Shown here piece by piece: positions 6,007 through 63,976 of a DNA stretch of 64,000 nucleotides. Position 1 is the first letter of the stretch. Each line of letters starts with the position of its first letter. Location of the stretch: assembly GCF_000003815.2 (NCBI RefSeq), contig NC_049986.1, positions 1,862,033 to 1,926,032 on the forward strand. Direction: 5' to 3'. A program made the position numbers and the translations under genes. The notes under the pieces were generated by a model, which saw only the letters and a list, made by a program, of their open reading frames with translations, was not told the DNA's origin and ran no database searches. The DNA is from Branchiostoma floridae (Eukaryota > Chordata > Leptocardii > Amphioxiformes > Branchiostomatidae).

Positions 6007-6239
6007 GTGGAGAAGGGGTTGCACGAGCAACCTCCATGGAGGAGCTCCACAGAGCTGACCTCCATGGAGGTTGCTCGTGCAGACCTCCAGCTCCACCGAG
6101 CGAGCTCTATGCGCTATGAATACAAACACTTGGTTCTCGTCACCTTCATGGACTTTTTAGTACTACATGGAGGAGCTTCTCTCGTAGAGGACAAACAACC
6201 GGACTGAACTAGCAGCTGTACGCAAAACATGCTACACGG

Positions 6240-7890
6240 GCTATGAATGTAAACATTTGGATCACGTCACCCAAAACAAATTGGTCTTAGCGCTCTATAC
6301 GGTAACAGAGGGCTGTTTGAGTAGCACTCTACGGGTTATGAATGTAAACACTTGGTTCACGAAACCCAAAACAAATCGGTCTTAGGGCTCCATACAGAGA
6401 TACTGTAAACAACAAACACACAGAGCCGATAGCTGATCGAGCAGCTCCACGGGCTATATGAATGTAAACACTTGGTTCACGTCACCATCAACAAATCGGT
6501 GTTTAGGGCTCTATACAGGGATACTGTAAAACAAAACACACGGAGCCGATAGCTGATCAAGCAGCTCCATGGGCTATATGAATGTAAACACTTGGTTCAC
6601 GTCACCATCAACAAATCGGTGTTTTGGGCTCTATACAGGGGTACTGTAAACAACAAACACACAGAGCCGATAGCTGATCAAGCAGCTCCACGGGCTATAT
6701 GAATGTAAACACTTGGTTCACGTCACCATCAACAAATCGGTGTTTAAGGCTCTATACAGGGAAACTGTAAAACAAAACACACGGAGCCGATAGCTGATCA
6801 AGCAGCTCCACGGGCTATATGAATGTAAACACTTGGTTCACGTCACCATCAACAAATCGGTGTTTAGGGCTCTATACAGGGATACTGTAAACAACAAACA
6901 CACGGAGCCGATAGCTGATCAAGCAGCTCCACGGGCTATATGAATGTAAACACTTGGTTCACGTCACCATCAACAAATCGGTGTTTAGGGCTCTATACAG
7001 AGATACTGTAAACAACAAACACACGGAGCCGATAGCTGATCAAGCAGCTCCATGGGTTATTTGAATGTAACAACTTGGTTCACGTCCCCATCAACAAATC
7101 GGCGTTTAGGGCTCTATACAGGGGTACTGTAAACAACAAACACACGGAGCCGATAGCTGATCAAGCAGCTCCACGGGCTATATGAATGTAAACACTTGGT
7201 TCACGTCACCATCAACAAATCGGTGTTTAGGGCTCTATACAGGGATACTGTAAAACAAAACACACGGAGCCGATAGCTGATCAAGCAGCTCCACGGGCTA
7301 TATGAATGTAAACACTTGGTTCACGTCACCATCAACAAATCGGTGTTTAGGGCTCTATACAGAGATACTGTAAACAACAAACACACGGAGCCGATAGCTG
7401 ATCAAGCAGCTCCATGGGTTATTTGAATGTAACAACTTGGTTCACGTCCCCATCAACAAATCGGCGTTTAGGGCTCTATACAGGGGTACTGTAAACAACA
7501 AACACACGGAGCCGATAGCTGATCAAGCAGCTCCACGGGCTATATGAATGTAAACACTTGGTTCACGTCACCATCAACAAATCGGTGTTTAGGGCTCTAT
7601 ACAGGGATACTGTAAAACAAAACACACGGAGCCGATAGCTGATCAAGCAGCTCCACGGGCTATATGAATGTAAACACTTGGTTCACGTCACCATCAACAA
7701 ATCGGTGTTTAGGGCTCTATACAGGGATACTGTAAACAACAAACACACGGAGCCGATAGCTGATCAAGCAGCTCCACGGGCTATATGAATGTAAACACTT
7801 GGTTCACGTCACCATCAACAAATCGGTGTTTAGGGCTTTATACAAAGATATCGTAAACAACAAACACACAGAGCCGATAGCTGATAGCGG
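6240..7890 (+). repeat. ~120-bp tandem array, left arm
   Basis: About 13 units marked by GAGCCGATAGCTGATC at 6423, 6543, 6664, 6784, 6905, 7026, 7147, 7267, 7388, 7509, 7629, 7750 and 7871. A variant unit (ATGGGTTATTTGAATG) recurs at 7051 and 7413, so a three-unit, 362-bp block was duplicated (higher-order repeat). Confidence 0.92.
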
Positions 7891-12179: not shown

Positions 12180-13100
12180 TAACCTCCTTGTTTACATTCA
12201 TATAGCCCGTGGAGCTGCTTGATCAGCTATCGGCTCCGTGTGTTTTGTTTTACAGTATCCCTGTATAGAGCCCTAAACACCGATTTGTTGATGGTGACGT
12301 GAACCAAGTGCTTACATTCATATAGCCCGTGGAGCTGCTTGATCAGCTATCGGCTCCGTGTGTTTGTTGTTTACAGTATCTCTGTATGGAGCCCTAAACA
12401 CCGATTTGTTGATGGTGACGTGAACCAAGTGTTTACATTCATATAGCCCGTGGAGCTGCTTGATCAGCTATCGGCTCCGTGTGTTTTGTTTTACAGTATC
12501 CCTGTATAGAGCCCTAAACACCGATTTGTTGATGGTGACGTGAACCAAGTGTTTACATTCATATAGCCCGTGGAGCTGCTTGATCAGCTATCGGCTCCGT
12601 GTGTTTTGTTTTACAGTATCCCTGTATAGAGCCCTAAACACCGATTTGTTGATGGTGACGTGAACCAAGTGTTTACATTCATATAGCCCGTGGAGCTGCT
12701 TGATCAGCTATCGGCTCCGTGTGTTTTGTTTTACAGTATCCCTATATAGAGCCCTAAACACCGATTTGTTGATGGTGACGTGAACCAAGTGTTTACATTC
12801 ATATAGCCCGTGGAGCTGCTTGATCAGCTATCGGCTCCGTGTGTTTTGTTTTACAGTATCCCTGTATAGAGCCCTAAACACCAATTTGTTGATGGTGACG
12901 TGAACCAAGTGTTTACATTCATATAGCCCGTGGAGCTGCTTGATCAGCTATTGGCTCCGTGTGTTTGTTGTTTACAGTATCTCTGTATGGAGCCCTAAAC
13001 ACCGATTTGTTGATGTTGACGCAGTGAACCAAGTGTTTACATTCATAGTGCGCAGAGCGCTGCTTGTTCAGCTATCGGCTCTGTGCTTGTTGTTTACAAT
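12180..13100 (-). repeat. ~120-bp tandem array, right arm (inverted)
   Basis: Eight or so units in reverse orientation to the left array, marked by GATCAGCTATCGGCTCC at 12221, 12341, 12461, 12581, 12701, 12821 and 12941 (with ATTGG at the last), degrading towards 13070. Confidence 0.92.
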
Positions 13101-13399
13101 ATCTCCGTATAGAGCCCCAATACCGATTTGTTTTGGTTAACGTGAACCAAATATTTACATTCATAGTTCGCATTTGTTGAAGGTGCTAGTTCAGCCCGTC
13201 CCCGTTTGTTTTTCTTCTACGAGAGAAGCTTCTCCATGGATTTAAAAAAAATCATGAAGGTGACGCATTTGTTAGTGTTTGCATTCATTAGTGCGTAGAG
13301 CCCGTTTCGTGGAGCTGGAGGGCTGTACGAGCAACCTCCATGGAGGTGCTCTGTAGAGCTCCTCCATGGAGGTTGCTCGTGCAGCCCCTATTGCCCCAG

Positions 13400-43503: not shown

Positions 43504-46500
43504 GTGAGCCTGTTATTGTAATATGCAATATAATGACATAATGGATCAACAAGTGCATTTCTAAAGTATGGTAACTCGTTCATGTACAACACTTTACAGG
43601 AACATAATCTTCTCTATAAAGTTCTTTCGTCTTATATTTACAAATTATACACATATAGTCAAATTTGAATTACAGTTGTAATTGTGTGTTCATACATGTA
43701 ACGGGTGTCAGATGCCGTTGAGATTGTGTCAACATGTGTGTACATTTATATCAGAGGCTTCTGAAGATGTTGTTGATGGGAGTCTTACTTAATATGCAAT
43801 TTTACCACTTAGTATAACCTAGTGTGCGGGAGATCCTGGTTGAAGGGACTTGGTCAGAGCACTTTCATGGCAGGGGCGGGCGTAGGTGGAATCTTGTTCG
43901 GCACCATTTCGGACAGGTTCGTATTAACTATTAATCCTATTCATGACGGGACTTTTTGGTCAATCTGGGACCGTAGCGCTTTTGAGCCCCGACCCTCCTC
44001 ACTCATGTAATGCTTAAACGACTTATCATATGGCCCCTAACTAATTTCAAGAACATTGACGCTATTATGATGAAATATGACGTTATCAATATGACTTTAT
44101 TGGCTGGACCATGAAAAAGTGTATTCCCAGAAGACTTCAAGGTATGCTGCATAAATGTAACAGCAGGTGTAGGTAACCGATTAATAATGTTTTTACGACT
44201 TATGTTACCAATAATATATGATCAGCCATCTTGGACTTTGACCGTTGACGTCATCAAATAAGCATGATTTATTCATTTTTTAGTTATAAAAGATATTGTA
44301 GATAACATAAAATTTTATTTATGTACGAAAATAGCAATATATAGCAAATAAATGTGATTTTTTTTTAAATTGTGAAATCGGTGCCAACTTTATAAGCCGT
44401 TCTGGCGTTATGCTAGACGACCCACCCACCCCGGTCTGAATAGGGTTAATAAGACTATTTGTCATGCGATGCTATTGGTTGAGAGATATGCACTAGACGA
44501 ACGGACCTAATATGTAGACGGATGCTGACGTATGTTGACAAATGCTGACGGATCCCAAAAACCATCACGGATCCCAAAAAATGACGGATCCCACTTACAT
44601 CCGCAACGCATTCGTAGGTATCCGTAACTCACGGTGGATAAAAACACGGAACCCGTATACTTACGTGCTTCGTGACGAATGCTAACACTGCATCCGTATG
44701 GATACTTCCTAAATTACGGACCCTATACACATACGTAACGCATTCGTTGGTATCTATAAGTCACTAACGGATTTAAACATTGCATTCGTATGAATACTTT
44801 ACTTTTAACGTAAACAAAAGCATACGCGGTCAGGATTATTGTTTATCAGCAAAAATTGTTCAGATGCAGACGTATACGAATTCGCAACATCCTGACGGAT
44901 GCTAACGGATCCCCAAGATTACCAAAAGTCACGGATCACATACACAGCCGTAACGCATTTGTTGGCATCCGTGAATCGCTGTGAATGCAAACACGGAATT
45001 CGTGTGCTTACGTAATTGGCGGATGCTAACACAGCATCCGAAGGATACTTACTTTTATGTATGCGTGGCTAGCACTCTTGTTTTTGAGCATATATTTTAT
45101 TTTTTTAGATTGGTCATATCTTTCCCCCTTTTTGTACCTCGGACACCACAGTTTTTAATGTCAATACAAGTGAGACAATCCACGTTACGCTAGATACCAG
45201 GATACTCGGATTCGTAAGGATGCGAAATGGTTTTTTTTCTGCATTCGTGGCAAGATTACCAACAATGCACTGCTCCAGTGGATTGCTCCAGTGGAGGGGA
45301 TTCCATTGGAGCAGTGCATTGTTGGTAATCTTGGGATATCTTAAATATGCGACTCTGTATTTTTTTGCATCCGTACATTGGGGCGGTGTATTGTGGGTAA
45401 TCCAATCGTTGTCTCTCTGACCAATCAGACTGCACATCAGTCAGTTTAAAAATAAAGCGGAGATAGTCAGCGTTGTCCGTGAGGACCGCAATCTTTCTGT
45501 ACCTCAAACTTTGAGTTTTGAAACGTTGAACTCGGGATATGGATTTGTACACACGTGTGTGAACTTCTGTAGTAGGGTGATGTTGAGGCGGTGACCAAAC
45601 TCAAGTGGCAGTCGACGGACGGGACGGCGATCGAGGGACTGAAACAGCCAGCCCTGTTTTGTAGTTTGGCGTCCTGGGGCTATTTTACATCACTGTCCTG
45701 CGGATCTCACGGCGAGGTATGTTTTATATAATGATTGTTTCCAAACAATACCCGCTTTGAATTCGTCTTTGTGACTACATTCCTTGTTGGCTAGTAGTTA
45801 GTAGCGCTTTTGGTATGCTTGGGCTGAACAGAAACTTATCAGAAAACGACATAACGGAGCCTTACAAAACACAAGTCACAAGCATGATACTTGCTGAGTA
45901 ACTGTTGACTTATTTGGGAAAAATTTGAATCATCATCAAAACAGTACTTGTATACACATATGTTTGTATCAAGCCTGGTATTTATTCGCATAGGAACATT
46001 CTGTTCCAACGGTGTTTACGTGTTTGTTTATATGCGACGTCTCGTACACAATGCAAAGTCCGGCCGGGGAAGCAGATCACACCTTGTCACTAATTATGCA
46101 ACGCTAGACTGTTTCTGCCGCGCCCTCCCGGGGGACTTTTTTGGTATGATAATGCGGAATGTAACGGTGATAATGGCGATACCACAATCAGATGCATTTG
46201 TTCCTGTTGTATAACAAGCCATTCACCATTTCTTTTCATATACACCCTAATTACTTTGACGGACGCATCCATCAAACATGGATTCTTTAGCTATCTCAAA
46301 ATTTGATGGGATTATTCTTTCTCTTTTTCAGAAGGCGGGTCGACATTCTCTGGCCGTGTCAACAGCTGGGAGAACACTGGACTACAGGAAGGGCACAGAA
46401 GGAATTGAGCTGGGAGGGATCAGGGCGTAACTAGCCTGAAAAGAAGCGAAGCACTGTCACTAGTAGAAAGGAGACTTTGTGCTGTTGCGAGAAGCTGTAC

Positions 46501-49500
46501 ATACTGATACTATAAATCATGTTAGTTGTACTTTACAAGCTGGATTCACTATCTGTATCCTGTAGCCGGATGTGGAAATTCCTTAGAGTTGGACATCGCG
46601 AAGACTTTGATTTGTAATAGAAACAGATATTCGTAGAAGCAAGATTAGCCACAGACTCCCATGTCAGCTTTACATAAAAGTCAAATTGTATTCACGTTTT
46701 TGATCCTATATTCTATTTGGAAGTATAAGAAGTCATGTGATATTGGCGGTTAAAGGATTCAACTTTCCCTTAACATAATTAGATAACAGGGACTCTCTGT
46801 ACATACCTGGTATAACCCATTCTTGTTGCAATATTGTATCTGTCTGTATACATATCATGTGGCAGACAGGATTCGGCCTCGATGACATTACGTCGTTTAG
46901 TTCTTCTCAGGACTGGTTTAGAATAAGATTATTCTGTGCATTCTTTTCTATTTCAAATCGTGTTAGACTTTTATAAGAAAGTAATTGGGCACACATGATA
47001 TTGTGATTTGTCAAATGTGCGGAAAATTCATTAAAGTGACTTTGTATCTGCAGAAAATCCCGTTTTGGATTCTTTATGATCTGATCATACGAAGAAATCC
47101 CTAAAAAACGACTTCGCATCCGCGGCAAATACCGCATTGGGATTTCTTAGGATCCGACCATGACAAATATACGAGGAAAATCCTATAAAAACGACTTCGC
47201 ATCCGCGGCAAAGGCCGTTTTGGGACCCGTTCATTCCAGGTTTTTGAAGAAATCCTTTGAAAAACGACTTCGCATCCGAGGGAAATACCGTTTGGAGATT
47301 CTTTGCGATCCGGTCATTCCAGGTATTCAAAGAAATCCCTAAAAAAAGCGACTTCGCATCCGTGGAAAATCCCATTTTGGGATATGTTTGAGTCTTTTCA
47401 TTCCGGATCCCAAAAATCCAAATTTCGGATATTTTAGGGATCCAACTCGAATCCGTTTGCATTCGCTAGCATTTGTTACAAATACGCAAATATCCCTGCT
47501 CGAATATGGCTACATCCGATACCCTTTCCCCCAGTGATGGGTGACGTCATCACACCCTCTCTATAAAGCACAGCGGAGGAATAGATCACTGCAGTCTACA
47601 GGTTTTCCGCCTGCCGTTGGAGCCTAAGCGACAGAACCAGGCTGTCGCTTCCTCCCCACCAAAAGGCCATCTTGTGAACTGTGACAATGGCGAAGAAGTC
47701 GTCCATCCCGTTTTAAGGTTTGGTAGTTCCCCCGTGCACGGTTCTGGTGGTATGAGATTATGTAGAATGTTGTGGTGGGCGTGTAGCGCCGTCGTGTTAT
47801 ACGTTTGTGGCATGTTCTTGTCTGACAGATTGGCTGTCCGTTCTTCATGTGCGTCGAAGGAGCGACCAATTGAGGTTGGACTTTTGTTCTGTACTTCTTC
47901 CCTTTTCACTCGCTACGTTATTTTCCAGGTTTGGTGAAGGAAAGGAAAGGAGACGGCCAAGCTATATGTGAGAGGTTTAATCCTGTGTTAACTTTTGCCT
48001 TGTCTCCGTGAGGTGAGTTAATCTTTGACACCTGGTCACGCACGTGGGAATTCGGAGTCATCAAATCGCCAGACAGGCTGCCTCGTTTCCTCTTTTCTTT
48101 CCCCTTTGTTTCGACTTAGGACAAGGGAGTGTTTGTGCGTTGCATGTACCCGCATTTTATTTTCTCGTTGAGTTGGCATTTTGCTATGTGTTTCTTTGTT
48201 CGTTTAGTCGATAGACTTTGCAGGTCCAGGGAGGGACGTCGTTAGAGCTTGAACGGATTAGTCCCTACACGTGCACGGCAGCTAGCTGTGTAGTTGGTGC
48301 TTTGTTCTCAGGTATGCGGATGAAGGTGACGGAATTCCTTGCTGTTGCGTGTGTGTAATTGTGTTTGTATCGTGGGTGCTTTATTGCTGGTTGATGTATG
48401 TGCCTGTGTTGGGTGTTTGAAGCCTCTCTCTCATGTTATCGTGAAATTCGCTCACCTTTGAGGTCAGGCTGTGTGATTCTGGCGTGTGAGAATGTGTTGC
48501 CTCGTGCAGTTACGAGCATGGCGCATCAAGGTTAAAATACTAATGTGTCGCTGTTTGGTTATCTCTTTAATTTTCGTAGGCTTGAATCTGCCAGAGATGG
48601 ATAGCGAAGGGGTCCCCCAGATATCGGCGCCCTCCACCTCCTTAGGGTCTCGCCGCAGGGCTCACTCTACCGTGGTCTTGGCGTCCACCTCGGCAGCCCC
48701 ATCAGCTACGTCCCCAGCACTTTCATCCGCGGTGGCCGAGGTTGGGTTGGTATAAACTGGTATACGGGAATTTTATCGTTGTTTGTGGTTGTATTGGAGG
48801 AGCGTTATTACTGTGTTGGTGCATTTGTTTGTGGTTGTATTGGAGGAGCGTTATTACTGTGTTGGTGCATTTGTTAGTGGGTGGAATTGACGTTTCTTTC
48901 TCCCGATTAACAGTTTAGAACTTTCCTGACGTGTCAGTCTGACAGCCTTGTATGTGTACAGCAGACGTGACAGAGCCAGTTCCATTTTTGTCCTTCTTGA
49001 AGAAGAAAACCCAGCGTTGTAGACAAGTTGTGCCTATTTTCCCTTCCCTGTATGACCCCACTTCGTCCCATTGTTCGCAGGTATGTACCACCGGCAGCGA
49101 GGCGGAGCACGTGCACATGAATTCTTTCAGGTGTGAGCCAGTGAAACACTTACGTGTCATGCGGGTCTCCTTTGTGCGGTGTGAGGCTATTCTGTCACAT
49201 TTCCTTTCCAGAATTAGCTGTCGTTGGGGTATTCCAGGGGCGACTTCCAGGATGATGGAAAAAATGTGTATGACAACCTGACGAGAACCTAATTACTTTC
49301 CGCAGCTAGGTCAGTGTGATTAGCAGCGGACGACGTGGAGTCGATCAGTTTCGACCGTGTCGCACGTGGTTTCAGACACATCAATGCCTCCCCGTGTTAC
49401 TGTTTGTGTGGTTTGTTTCGAGTTGCTTTCATGTCGGGAGAAATATTTGTGCCATGTTGGTGTTCATAGCTCTAAGATGTGCTTGGGGAACTGACAGTTT

Positions 49501-52500
49501 CTGTTTTGTTTTGTTTTCTCCCGGTTAGGAATTGACTCCTTTCACCAAGTGTTTCAGCCTGATAGCCCTTTACAGCGGCTAGTTTTACAGGGCTAGTTTT
49601 GCGGTTCTTCATCCTAGCAGAGGAAGTATTACCACCTGTTTGAGATGAATTAAATCTGTTTTCCCATCTCTGTTTTGTCCCCGGTGATTTCATTGTTTGC
49701 AGGTATGTGGCACCTGGTCGCGGCGTGGGATTTGGCGCCAACTTGCCTCGACTAGGGCTCTAAAAGGGGTTGATGAAAGCTCCTTGATGCCTAGGAATCA
49801 GTTTGCGTGTATTACTCCGGTTTGTTCTGTGTCCGGGTGCCTCTCATTTGAAGCTCTGCATTTTAGTTTTTAGCTTTGCCATATACCAGGATCCGCCGTG
49901 TTGCACGTGGTGTGTAGAGACACTCTGCTACTCCTGTTGTTGCTGTTTAATTGAGGTGTTCTCGACTGTTACAGTCTCCGAGCCGCTACAAGAGGCATCC
50001 CTCGCACGTGAGTCACAGTCGACGTGGTCACGGTGGCGCGGTTGGCCACCCATGGCGACGGTTTGTAGTGGTATCTTTTTTTTTTTTTTTCTAGGCGTGT
50101 ACCCTATATGTCGTCTTCAGTAATTCTCGTTCGTTGTGTGGTTGGAAGCGAAAGGTGAGTTTGTGTGGCTGGCGCCTGTTTCTAATTCTCTCATGTTATC
50201 GTGGAATTCGCCCACCTTTGAGGTCCAGGTTGTGTGGTCGAGCGTGGTTTGTGAATAACACTCCGGGTCCTGTCTACCTTAACCGTGTGTTGGATGATTG
50301 ATAATCGGTCAGCTGTTTATCGATGTGTTTCAATTTTTTAGACTGGAGTGGACTACACGCTGACAACGACAGTACAACAGACGAGCCGTCAGGCGCAGCC
50401 AGGCCCCGGGCTTCAGTACCCCCGCCACGTAAGGAGTCAGACGCAGATCACCTCCGGCTTCGGTGGACGCCCGGGCCCCTTGGACAGCGTCAGTAGCGGT
50501 CCTCGGTACGGCAGCCTGCCCGAACACGAGTCGGAGTGGGAGGGATGTCCGGCCCTCAGGCGCTACCACACCCCAGATGGCAGCTCCTCCCCGGCAGAGA
50601 GTCAGACTCCGGCGCGCGCTGCGTCGGTCCTGGTGGTTCCAGACACAACCAGTTTAGCTGTAAGTGCGCACCATGCTTCAGGACCAGGCTCAGCTTTTCA
50701 GGCTAGGGGCGTGGAGCTGGGTATGTGTCTGGAGTGAGATTGGACGTATTTTTAAGATATGTTTTGTAACTTGTTTGTTGTCTCCAGGTTGGCGGAGCGG
50801 AGGTATCCGGTACGCGGTGTGTGTGCACTGTTGTTTAACACCAGGTTCCATTCCCGGTCCGACTTCGGGTCTCGGGGTGAAGCTGCATTCCTGTGCGAGA
50901 CCAAGCAAGATTCCCGGTTCGACCTCGGGGCGCGGTGTGAAGCTGCATTCCTGTGCGAGACCAAGTAAGATTCCCGGTTCGACCTCAGGTCGCGGGGTGA
51001 AGCTGCATTCCTGTGTGAGACCAAGCAAGATTCCCGGTTCGACCTCGGGTCGCGGGGTGAAGCTGCATTCCTGTGTGAGACCAAGTAAGATTCCCGGTTC
51101 GACCTCGGGTCGCGGGGTGAAGCGGCATTCCTATGTGAGACCAAGCAAGATTCCCGGTTCGACCTCGGGTCGCGGGGTGAAGCTGCATTCCTGTGGGAGA
51201 CCAAGTAAGATTCCCGGTTCGACCTCGGGTCGCGGGGTGAAGCTGCATTCCTGTGGGAGACCAAGCAAGATTCCCGGTTCGACCTCGGGTCGCGGGGTGA
51301 AGCTGCATTCCTTTGCGAGCTCAAGTAAGATTCCCGGTTCGACCTCGGGTCGCAGGGTGAAGCTGCATTCCTGTGTGAGACCAAGTAAGATTCCCGGTTC
51401 GACCTCGGGTCGCAGGGTGAAGCTGCATTCCTGTGTGAGACCAAGTAAGATTCCCGGTTCGACCTCGGGTCGCGGGGTGAAGCTGCATTCCTGTGTGAGA
51501 CCAAGTAAGATTCCCGGTTCGACCTCGGGTCGCGGGGTGAAGCTGCTTTCCTGTGTGAGACCAAGTAAGATTCCCGGTTCGACCTCAGGTCGCGGGGTGA
51601 AGCTGCTTTCCTGTGTGAGACCAAGTAAGATTCCCGGTTCGACCTCGGGTCGCGGGGTGAAGCTGCATTCCTTTGCGAGCTCAAGTAAGATTCCCGGTTC
51701 GACCTCGGGTCGCAGGGTGAAGGCTGCATTCCTGTGTGAGACCAAGTAAGATTCCCGGCCGACCTCGGGTCGCGGGGCGAAGCTGCATCCCTGCGCGAGA
51801 CCAAGTAAGATTCCCGGCCGACCTCGGGTCTCGGAGTGAAGCTGCATTCCTTTGCGAGCCTAAGTAAGATTCCCGGCCGACCTCGGGTCGCGGGGCGAAG
51901 CTGCATTCCTGTGTGAGACCAAGTAAGATTCCCGGCCGACCTCGGGTCTCGGAGTGAAGCTGTAGTCCTTTGCGAGCCTAAGTAAGATTCCAGGCCGACC
52001 TTAGGTTGCGGGGCGAAGTTACCTTCCGGTATGGGACTTGGGCAAGATTCCCGGTCTGACCTCGAGTGGCGGGGCGTAGTTACCTTCCGATGTGAAATGG
52101 TGTAAGGTTCCCGGTCCGACTTCTTGTACATGGTCGCAGGGTAAAGTTACTTTCGGGTGCCAGACCAGGTACGATTCCAGGTCAGACCTCGGGTCGTGCG
52201 GAGAGATTAGATTCCAGTGCGAGACCAGGTTAAATTCTCGGACTTCGGGTCGCGGGATGATGATGCTTTCTGGTCTCGGTCCAGGTATAGTTCCCGGTTC
52301 GGCCTCGGCGTTGAGTCACATGCAGTGCAAGGTGCAATTCCCGGTTCGACCTCGGGTCGCGGGGTAAGTTACACGCCGGTTCTAAATCAAGTACAGTTCC
52401 TGCGGGCCCGGTCTGACTTCAGGTCGAGGAGTGAAGTTGTCTTCAAGACTGGCTCAGTCCTTGGTTCGACATTAGATCGCGGGGTGAACAACGCAGGTGT

Positions 52501-55500
52501 GTTTACATGGTAGTTCGAGTGATTTAGCATCTTGTCCCCTCCGTGGTGGGAACGGAGGTTTTAGTATGTTGTCCCGGGATTCGAAACGGGTAAGAAATAT
52601 AGGGATCGCCAGAAACGACCGTCATTTTCAACGATTTAACGATTTGTTTTTGTTCGGTGGAAAGGGCAAATGGTTTGCCCGGAAATTTTCATACGAATTC
52701 GGTACCTTGTGTGCTATAAATAATGAATGTGGAGTCGACTGAATACTGTCCGGTAATTGGAGTTTAAGTCTTAGTGTGCTTCACATTGTGAAGCGGGATG
52801 TGGACTTAACTAATTAGTTACCCGGAAATTTTGATTTAAATCCGGTGCCCGTGTGTAACCTAGGAAGCGAAGGGTTTTGGCCGCGTAATTGGTATATTAA
52901 CGGAGTCGTGGCATTGGCGAAAATCATTTGTACAACGGGTGCAATTTGGCCACATAATTTGCAATGTGGATTGACTAGCATAGACATTGCGAGCTTGTCA
53001 ATTGCTAGTAGTAAGCGAGTAGCTAATTCATTTTAGGGGAGGTAGTCATGCAGTCTGGCGAAAAGGTCATCCCCGAGCCAAAGTAACCGGGGTGCTGACG
53101 TGCCTCCTGTCCTCCAAGTTGTGTTTCTAGCTATAAGGGGTGCTTTTTGTACATGGTATGGAATATTGCATTGGGAGTTGGAGGAGTTTAGAAGCTGACT
53201 CTACCCACAGTTAGTGACATCTCCCTGCTGACACCCATTCAGTAAATTTGGAGGGGAGGTGCGTCAGCACCACAGGAACCACTCCAGATCCAGGCAGAGT
53301 TTATAGCAAGGCAAGAGTTTGTGGTAGCGTCACAATTTACAAGGGGTGTGCCTTGTGGCTTAACTTAGTTTTATTTGGGGCAATAGCCGGTGGTATTCGG
53401 TCCGCCAATTACATGACCATGAAATGTAGCCTGAAAAACAGGGTAGGCACTCAAGATTTATTTTGTTTGGTGGAAAGGGCAAAAGGTGTTATGTGGTTTT
53501 GGAAAGGAAGAGAATTTTGTATGAGGGAGGGGAAGTGAGTATATAAATGAGAGTGGGCTGGTGGCTAATCTAAGGTGAGGATTGACAAGAATATAGAGAA
53601 GGATAGGGCTTAACAGCCAATGAGAGATGGAATTGAGAAGTGGGAGGCGAGACTAAAGAGGAGGATAGGGGTATGTATTTAGAGAAGATTAGGGCGTAAT
53701 GCCCAAGTAGAGCAAAGGCGGAAGACGGCGATTTCCGCATCACTCATATCGGAGAACCTGTAGCTACGCATGATAAATAGGAAACTATTTGTCATGCGAT
53801 GCTATTGGTTGAGAGATATGGGTGACGTCATCACACCCTCTCTATAAAGCACAGCGGAGGAATAGATCACTGCAGTCTACAGGTTCTCCGTACGCCTTTG
53901 GAGCCTAAGCGACCCACCCGCCCACCCTGACAGATGGCCATTTTGGTGGGGTACAAGCGCCCGTTCTGGGGCGGGCACCATAGCCGGCTTGAAGCCTTAG
54001 GCTCCAGACGGCGATTTCCGCATCACTCATATCGGAGAACCTGTAGCTACGCATGATAAATAGGAAACTATTGGTAGCTTCACTGCAATCACGCTACAGT
54101 TTTTTTTTACCTCAGTTAGTGTTGCTTTTGGGTCTAGTATTCACTATGTCGACAGTGGGATATGAAATACCTCATGAAATAAGTAGGTGTACTTGAGAAT
54201 AATGCATTTTTTTCTTAGAAATGTAATTAAATAACACTCAGTAACGAAAACCTGTCAGCTCGCTCAAATTGTCAACCGATACCAGCAGATTAACACCATC
54301 AATGCTATCTACCTACGAACGTTTCGATACTTATCCTACTACCCTTGTCAATGCTATTCTGACTAGTTGTGTATGGGGGGGGGGGGGGTAGCTTAGTCAC
54401 GTTTGGAACCGCATCCTTACCACTGCAGCGCCACCTAGTACAAAAATCTAGTACAGTATTTAGCACTGCCTTGAGAAACGTTTCAGAAGGACTACTGAAA
54501 AACATTGCCAGGCAATTGGTGTAATTACAAGGAACCTTTAATGCCAACCTGACAAAACTATTCATGAATCCCACATAGGTTTGGCCGCCGACCTACTACA
54601 GTGTTTTGCCTTGTACTGCACCTCGCCTTGAGCACAGGAGCGTCTTTCACGTCAGATTATGGTTCCTTCATCGTTCTACGTGCGTTAGATGGAGCAGCTG
54701 TCAATGGTCTATACTTCACCGCCTTTGTTCTAGGTACAGTTAAAAATACATCATTTGTGTTGCCTTCGCTAAGAATACCGTATTCTCTGTACTTGCTGGC
54801 TTGCTGATTGGCTTGCTGGTTTTCTGACTGGATGGCTGGCTTGCTGGTTGGCTGGCTGGTTTTCCTACTGGCTGGCTGGCTTGCTGGTTGGCTGGCTGAC
54901 TGGTTTTCTGACCGGCTGGCTGGTTTGCTGGCTGGCTGGCTGTTTGGTTGTTTGTCAAAGACTATTAGGTCTCATTCATGTAGTACTATTTCTAAAAGAG
55001 CACCTACCCCAAAGCAAACGACTGCATGAACGTATGTTTGTAGCAGTTGAAAATTCTATTTATCTATCCCATCTAACCACGGGTATTGTTGTTTACAAAC
55101 ACCCATACATTCTACTGCAGTACCGAAGGAAAATGGCCATTCCACTTGGAACATTTGACGACTTTCAATGTCTCAAAAGATTAGAATGAGGAAAAACATG
55201 TTTCCATTGCTACAGTCTCGTTAGCACATCATTAGCGTATGACCCACACCCTCCTATTACCGTCACCAGTGATGGTTTCTCTTTCACGGAGAAACCATCA
55301 CGGCCCCGCACTGAACCGAACCAGGACCAGGTCCGGAGGTGGCTCAGGACGGTTTGCGGAAATACCATCATACGCCCTTTATTTCCTCTTTAGACCGGTG
55401 ACGGCTAAGCGCCATATGACGGTTAACCGACACAGGATGGTTTAAGCAAAATATAAAGTGCACCTAAGTTTTATCTAAATGAATGTATGGCATGTTACTC

Positions 55501-63083: not shown

Positions 63084-63325
63084 TCAGGCATGAGATACCG
63101 TCTTGAGCACGGCAGACACACGTACAACATGTATGATACACACACGACGCTAAGATATTTGCTGAAGACAGTTTCAAGATCGCACAGTACTTACTTAACC
63201 TGCTTTTCAAGGCGATGCACACCACCTGGGAGCCCTACGGATATATATCTGAGCATTTGAAGCAAACTCGTGGCGTGTACGTATCTCTATCTGACCAGGT
63301 GGAACTGAGGACAACTCGTACAGAC

Positions 63326-63976
63326 ATGAAAGTAAGTGGACTGCTGTTGCTCCTTACTTTGACCCGTCTATGGTCAGGTTATGCTTGTCTACCGGCTACG
63401 TGTAGCATAGACTATTTGTCATACTTCGGGGCATCGATGGTTCACTGTTACAATACAAACCTTACGGCGATTCCTGACGACATCCCGGCCAATGCTGAAA
63501 GCTTTACCTTGTCCAGTTCATGTAGCATCACGAAAGTACCGTACCTTCCACCACTACCGCGGCTGCGTGTCCTGGAACTAAAAAGGAACTGCATAGATTC
63601 TTTTTCCTGGATTTCTTTGCGTGCGCTGCCAAATTTGAAATCTCTTGGTCTAATGGGAAACCGACTTCGGTACGTGAAGCTGGACACCGTCATTGAGCAT
63701 CTCCCGAAGCTGAGAGATGTTGACCTACGTTACAACAAATTGGCGTCTTTCTCTGAGTACGAGCTGGGACGGCCCCAAGTCACCGAGGCATGGCTCAATG
63801 GGAACCCTCTTCGCTGTGACTGTGACCTCTCCTGGCTGATGGTTAAGATGACGTGTTTACAAGAACTTTATTGCACGACAACTGTAGAGGATACAGTGTT
63901 TGGCAACTTGAACATACAATACATACAGAACAGAACACTACATGAGTTATTAGTATCTAAAAATCTAACAGACTAA
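63326..63976 (+). CDS. small secreted leucine-rich-repeat protein
   Basis: Start chosen at 63326 because MKVSGLLLLLTLTRLWSG gives a signal peptide; the frame is open upstream to an ATG at 63215, which would bury it behind 37 polar residues. 216 residues, TAA at 63974-63976. A cysteine-rich N-cap (CLPATCSIDYL...VHCYNTNLTAIP) is followed by LRRs (LPRLRVLELKRNCI, LPNLKSLGLMGNRL, LPKLRDVDLRYNKL) and a C-cap (NPLRCDCDLSWLMVKM...LYC). There is no membrane segment or GPI signal before the stop. By family knowledge an extracellular recognition or adhesion module; it resembles the ectodomain at 30.5 kb in layout but not closely in sequence. Confidence 0.85.
   Translation: MKVSGLLLLLTLTRLWSGYACLPATCSIDYLSYFGASMVHCYNTNLTAIPDDIPANAESFTLSSSCSITKVPYLPPLPRLRVLELKRNCIDSFSWISLRALPNLKSLGLMGNRLRYVKLDTVIEHLPKLRDVDLRYNKLASFSEYELGRPQVTEAWLNGNPLRCDCDLSWLMVKMTCLQELYCTTTVEDTVFGNLNIQYIQNRTLHELLVSKNLTD

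Follow-up and report, generated by a model that had tools for sequence, protein, structure and literature searches.

The window analysed here is a stretch of 64,000 nucleotides from the amphioxus Branchiostoma floridae (NCBI RefSeq assembly GCF_000003815.2, contig NC_049986.1, positions 1,862,033 to 1,926,032, forward strand); positions below are counted from its first letter. It holds a transposable element lodged in an intron of an SLC22-like transporter gene, in which the exon ending at 43916 and the exon starting at 54579 join in frame via DRFGRR. The best solved match of this host gene is SLC22A6 (E 2.3e-6), followed by synaptic vesicle glycoprotein 2A (2.5e-4). We conclude with high confidence that the element is a non-autonomous split-direct-repeat (SDR) retrotransposon with the order of tyrosine-recombinase (DIRS) elements, belonging to a multi-copy family that is probably trans-mobilised by elements encoding an ALOG recombinase. 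The general kind of element is already known.

On the forward strand, the element is arranged as A1, a 6.1 kb interior, B1, A2, C and B2. A1 is interrupted by an insert that separates an outer part (44454-44490, starting ACTATTTGTC) from an inner part (47537-47604, or 47540-47604 without a duplicated ATG). Sequence comparison aligns these parts with 53784-53820 and 53818-53885, respectively, with 0 mismatches. Skipping the insert, A1 and A2 (53784-53885) are identical over 102/102 bp, and B1 (53723-53789) is identical to B2 (54006-54072), the right end, over 67/67 bp with 0 mismatches. Just beyond their left edge, B2 and B1 show a GGA/TCC difference that is fixed in 8/8 copies of the family. 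The interior (6,118 bp) spans 47605-53722. Segment C (53886-54005) connects A2 to B2, and no second occurrence of its 53914-53998 part was found within the window. Subtracting the insert and its 3-bp duplication gives an element length of about 6.57 kb. The preliminary description of this DNA had proposed exactly this order, with A1 at the left, B1-A2-B2 at the right, identical repeats and an SLC22 intron as host, and it holds on each of these points.

The insert in A1 (44491-47536, 3,046 bp) is of the CACTA (EnSpm-like) type. It has CACTA.../...CAGTG ends and is flanked by a 3-bp target duplication, ATG, at 44488-44490 and 47537-47539. Because A2 keeps the uninterrupted sequence, the insert is younger than the split-repeat element; none of the seven other full copies described below has it in A1. 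No Pfam transposase was found in the insert open reading frames (ORFs) scanned. An imperfect hairpin (87%) at 45251-45333 within the insert is perhaps a nested miniature element, and a search of Rfam gave just sub-threshold mir-33/mir-289 matches, on the insert hairpin.

The interior has a G+C content of 51% (49% without its tandem array), compared to 41% in the window. Repeat analysis places in it a 60-bp tandem array of 20.5 copies (50850-52074), which spans about 19 to 37 units across the seven other full copies; the amphioxus 'mirage' minisatellites, which span exon-intron borders (PMC3087553), were considered for this array. A Pfam scan of 35/41 ORFs of at least 70 amino acids, the six others all lying within the array, found neither a reverse transcriptase (RT) nor a tyrosine recombinase in the window element, hence the term non-autonomous. 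All Pfam matches in the element and insert fall below curated cut-offs (CDGP 0.1; GULLO2-like 0.0015; FdhE_N 0.001; Katanin_con80 0.046; DUF6303 0.0037), and an IMG/VR pattern search gave 0 matches. An interior of about 6 kb without these enzymes and with a 60-bp array agrees with the preliminary description, which had also seen a spliced frame there. The latter is not conserved among copies. Relative to the window, its possible exon 1 (48597-48740, forward strand) differs by 5 synonymous and 8 non-synonymous changes in seven copies (L009-L012, L014, L016, L032), and its possible exon 2 (50342-50659, forward strand) by 3 synonymous and 11 non-synonymous changes in the six ungapped ones (L009-L011, L014, L016, L032). 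Exon 2 also carries indels in L012, L015, L019 and L021 and stops in L015, L019, L021 and L032; among the loci whose frame is broken by such changes are L012, L015 and L032. Together these data give no indication of constraint at the protein level on the two-exon frame, and both exons are probably not coding. Two diverged pairs of interior duplicates, 48427-48486/50187-50246 (87% over 61 bp) and 48897-49092/49515-49714 (62% over 203 bp), are seen in other copies too.

Searched with the B1-A2-B2 block, the 513-Mb host genome (431 contigs) returned at least 40 matches, of which 20 regions and then 8 more were read. Seven further copies (L009, L010, L011, L012, L014, L015 and L016) show the full order, the shared interior and the 60-bp array; their interiors are matched throughout by pieces of 88-100% identity, segment C is kept, and their flanks are unrelated. 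Hence, the genome contains at least eight full copies. The seven measure 6,057 to 7,662 bp, L015 including about 1.6 kb of additional sequence. Partial copies were also found (L013, L030, L032), as well as one locus with A2 and part of C only (L018). L013 and L030 are adjacent on one contig: on the same strand, a right end is followed across an assembly gap by a left end, which represents either two neighbouring copies or a misassembly. In more distant families, A1 lies 3.3 to 5.7 kb upstream of A2 in 9/10 loci (L019 and L021-L028, not L020) with 92.6-100% identity, in elements of 3.5 to 6.0 kb. In L019 and L021, which belong to a second family, the initial 1.1 kb of the interior (47605-48745) is largely unmatched, similarity being seen from about 48745. 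The tyrosine-recombinase retrotransposon layout and the large non-autonomous family, both suspected from the window alone, are therefore borne out by the same order in seven further copies and by eight full copies in which no enzymes of their own were found. The recurrence of A1 ... B1-A2-B2 in these copies speaks against B/A blocks that are unrelated tandem duplications, and the seven show neither ordinary long terminal repeats (LTRs) nor target duplications beyond ACT/CT.

The ends of the copies define the target site. In the seven further full copies, B2 runs to GGAAACT, A1 starts ACTATTTGTC, and the adjoining host DNA shows no duplication. The right end is ACT in 17/19 readable ends (eight copies of the window family, L017 and L019-L028; exceptions L015 and L017), L013 being left out of the count as its ACT is followed by N. 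The left end is ACT in 9/17 and CT in 15/17 (eight copies of the window family, L019 and L021-L028; CT exceptions L024 and L025). No target duplication exists past the short ACT/NCT motif, as is characteristic of SDR elements. A longer shared core, ACTATT, was dropped, since across copies just ACT/CT is constant; the shared core is therefore 2-3 bp, and the ACTATT of the window includes three extra target bases. In the window, the element proper probably ends at the ACT at 54067-54069. If the SDR model is true, the empty SLC22 intron site is expected to read GGTTAATAAG-ACT-ATTGGTAGC, with a single ACT.

Alignment of A1 and A2 of the eight full copies reveals a copying tract. Five private changes are common to A1 and A2 of one copy only, in 4/8 copies (two in L012 and one each in L014, L015 and the window), and one private change of the same kind is common to B1 and B2 (L014). 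Over the outer 99 columns, the mean difference between A1 and A2 is 0.75 within a copy versus 2.0 across copies. Past these columns the relationship is reversed, with 12.0 differences within a copy versus 3.6 between A's at the same position. A1-type and A2-type letters persist beyond the tract edge, and fixed differences between the two types start at column 104, corresponding to position 53891, so that the edge is situated about 17 bp beyond the predicted start site at 53874. In L009, L014 and L016, A2-type letters reach further into A1; the switch point therefore varies. Unshared changes are found in A1 of L014 and L015, in A1 and A2 of L016, in A1 of the window at 47605, and, with one change each, in B1 of L015 and L016. 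On this alignment, the changes common to A1 and A2 indicate that the outer A tract of one insertion is rebuilt from a single template, as the SDR model requires.

The B1|A2 junction has a distinctive shape. In the window, an imperfect palindrome (53740-53825) covers it with 31/43 pairs, rank 2 among 61,946 windows of 86 bp, a length taken from the self-comparison of the window. Its inner arms, CGCATGATAAATAG and CTATTTGTCATGCG, flank GAAA and pair at 13/14 positions; the window contains further 14-base arms with this many pairs. Across 12 junctions of the window family and others, 12-14/16 positions pair despite differing arm letters. At positions 7-14 of seven representatives, an arm pairs with its own partner at 6.43/8 positions versus 4.45/8 with the others, and 17/20,000 shuffles reach the observed sum of own-partner pairs; because L017 and the window are closely related, these representatives are not fully independent. 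A further family, represented by L038, has a 24-bp arm pair with 20/24 paired and the same spacing. Such junctions, which change in letters yet stay palindromic, are as would be expected of a two-armed tyrosine-recombinase site.

The host genome also contains related elements that encode enzymes (L017, L037 and L038/L039). L017 is close to the window element (A2 86%, C 90%, B1 98.5%, B2 97%) and carries upstream of its B1 an ALOG domain (E 4.5e-19) and a Phage_integrase recombinase (E 1.2e-7). These lie in two frames, and L017 is therefore broken. Two of the genome places similar to its recombinase were read, L037 and L038 with L039. L037 shows ALOG and recombinase followed by B1-A2-B2, with much of the region unreadable. 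L038/L039 contain a CCHC knuckle (E 2.6e-5), ALOG (E 1.8e-9), a recombinase and B1-A2-B2, with A1 97% identical to A2 and an assembly gap interrupting the ALOG/recombinase region. By eye, a 772-amino-acid frame of L038 has a YIDD motif and RNase H-like stretches. When proteins of L017 and L024 were compared by tblastn with L009-L036, ALOG/recombinase was found in L017 only. An RT at L024 was rejected as part of the element: it is LINE-like (long interspersed element) by eye and located upstream of that element's A1. The preliminary description had proposed a search for genome copies with RT and recombinase. Such sequence is present in the relative L017 (recombinase) and in the SDR element L038/L039 (gag, RT/RNase H-like, recombinase); the full copies read show no such genes.

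The order in eight copies, the A1/A2 sharing with its edge near a predicted start, the ACT/CT ends, the palindromic junctions and the ALOG recombinase of L017 together argue for an SDR retrotransposon, and we infer its transcription start, reverse transcription, circle and acting recombinase as follows. RNA would start at a promoter in A1, so that the outer A sequence would be lost and A2 would supply the replacement; at its 3' end, the RNA would likewise stop short of the end of B. Both ends would be provided pre-joined by the internal B1-A2 block, and complementary DNA completed on this block would close to a circle. Its B|A junction, with two inverted arms and a short spacer containing ACT, would recombine with a target ACT or CT and leave no further target duplication. 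Promoter motifs offer a supporting hint: TATAAA followed at 26-37 nt by [CGT]CAGT[CT] occurs in the window, with both strands searched, solely in A1 (TATAAA 47562-47567, start-site-like GCAGTC 47591-47596) and A2 (53843-53848 and 53872-53877). TATA-like motifs were also seen by eye in A2 of L037 and L038.

Several observations weigh against this reading. The motif pair was picked after viewing the sequence and 0.58 occurrences are expected per window; strict start-site motif forms are absent in the window, and neither AATAAA nor ATTAAA is present between A2 and the right end. In 3/8 copies (L014, L015, L016), A changes are not common to A1 and A2, though this is expected of later decay. L017 is broken, no A1 was found within 7 kb of it and no RT upstream, where tandem repeats are situated; no helper that is complete and has exactly these ends was therefore seen. 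The RT assignment of L038 is weak: its two matches, to RVT_1 (E 0.033) and to a Ty3-like structure of RT/RNase H (E 0.011), do not reach usual cut-offs.

The alternative that survives best keeps the SDR retrotransposon and assigns its helper to another recombinase lineage, for instance an ordinary Ngaro, the recombinase of L017 sharing these ends merely by descent. At least 51 places in the genome are similar to the L017 recombinase, in many lineages, and Ngaro-like elements are reported in amphioxus-type genomes (PMC2632668). Still, we consider this unlikely, as the recombinases beside such ends among the loci read (L017, L037 and L038) are all ALOG-like. Two tandem tyrosine-recombinase DNA elements, one long and one short, with common ends would be compatible with the map of a single locus. 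That the full order recurs eight times at different flanks, and again in 9/10 distant loci, refutes this as a general account, and private changes common to A1 and A2 within copies also speak against it, making it highly improbable. Least credible of all is an LTR element or a pair of cut-and-paste transposons flanked by terminal inverted repeats. In favour of this, A and B are inverted relatives (score 42 versus a shuffled mean of 21.9, standard deviation 4.0, maximum 37 of 500). Against it, the inverted repeats are shifted by 8 bp relative to the ends, C-B is missing from the left end, no LTR is repeated at both ends, and the 8/8 window-family copies read have no variable target duplication.

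Returning to a trans-mobilised SDR retrotransposon, B1-A2 in this group of animal elements could tentatively be read as having two functions: like SDR elements, it would duplicate the joined ends exactly, and, like the inverted-repeat DIRS1 design, it would form a palindromic recombinase site with arms that change together from family to family. On this reading, the family would represent a living intermediate, whose sites pair with different recombinases, lock and key per family; PMC4157794 describes intermediates between split-direct and inverted-repeat layouts as not observed. SDR retrotransposon replication is largely a model, and natural copies here preserve traces of it: the tract rebuilt from internal spare ends, and its stopping point, can be read from shared private changes. 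Co-changing arms point to a candidate recombination site per family, and the sequences that may suffice for movement in trans are displayed by a large family that depends on helpers.

Elsewhere in the window, a leucine-rich-repeat ORF (63137-63976; LRR_4 E 8e-12) is found 3' of the transporter gene, and two big related tandem arrays (6231-7885 and 12189-13165) are in opposite orientation.

Compared to known systems, the non-autonomous split-repeat element TOC1 of Chlamydomonas also has an internal tandem array; it belongs to an alga, and its unit is 76 bp versus 60 bp here. Ngaro elements share the A1-[interior]-B1-A2-B2 order, with B1-A2-B2 at the right end (PMC8547959, PMC9210276). They differ in that neither RT nor recombinase was found in the window element and that the recombinase of its relatives is ALOG-type. 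VIPER/SIRE have the same order with 100% repeats, SIRE consisting of A2, a private middle and B2 (PMC6681497). They are trypanosomatid, and SIRE is short compared to 6.1-7.7 kb here. DIRS1-like elements share a 3-bp junction motif and, as here, have a short motif common to ends, circle junction and target, without target duplication (PMC3266345). Unlike them, with their inverted terminal repeats and internal complementary regions, the window element has identical split direct repeats and just an imperfect inverse complement. Finally, Iyer and Aravind 2012 (PMC3537659) assign ALOG recombinases to DIRS1-type retroposons, reported, inactivated, in Branchiostoma floridae, and describe, for elements of Branchiostoma floridae and Ectocarpus that bear terminal direct repeats, a recombinase with zinc ribbon, ALOG and catalytic domain. 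The Ectocarpus element, just over 9 kb, has RT, RNase H and methylase, whereas the window element and the full copies read show no such genes; ALOG and recombinase are encoded by their relatives L017 and L038.

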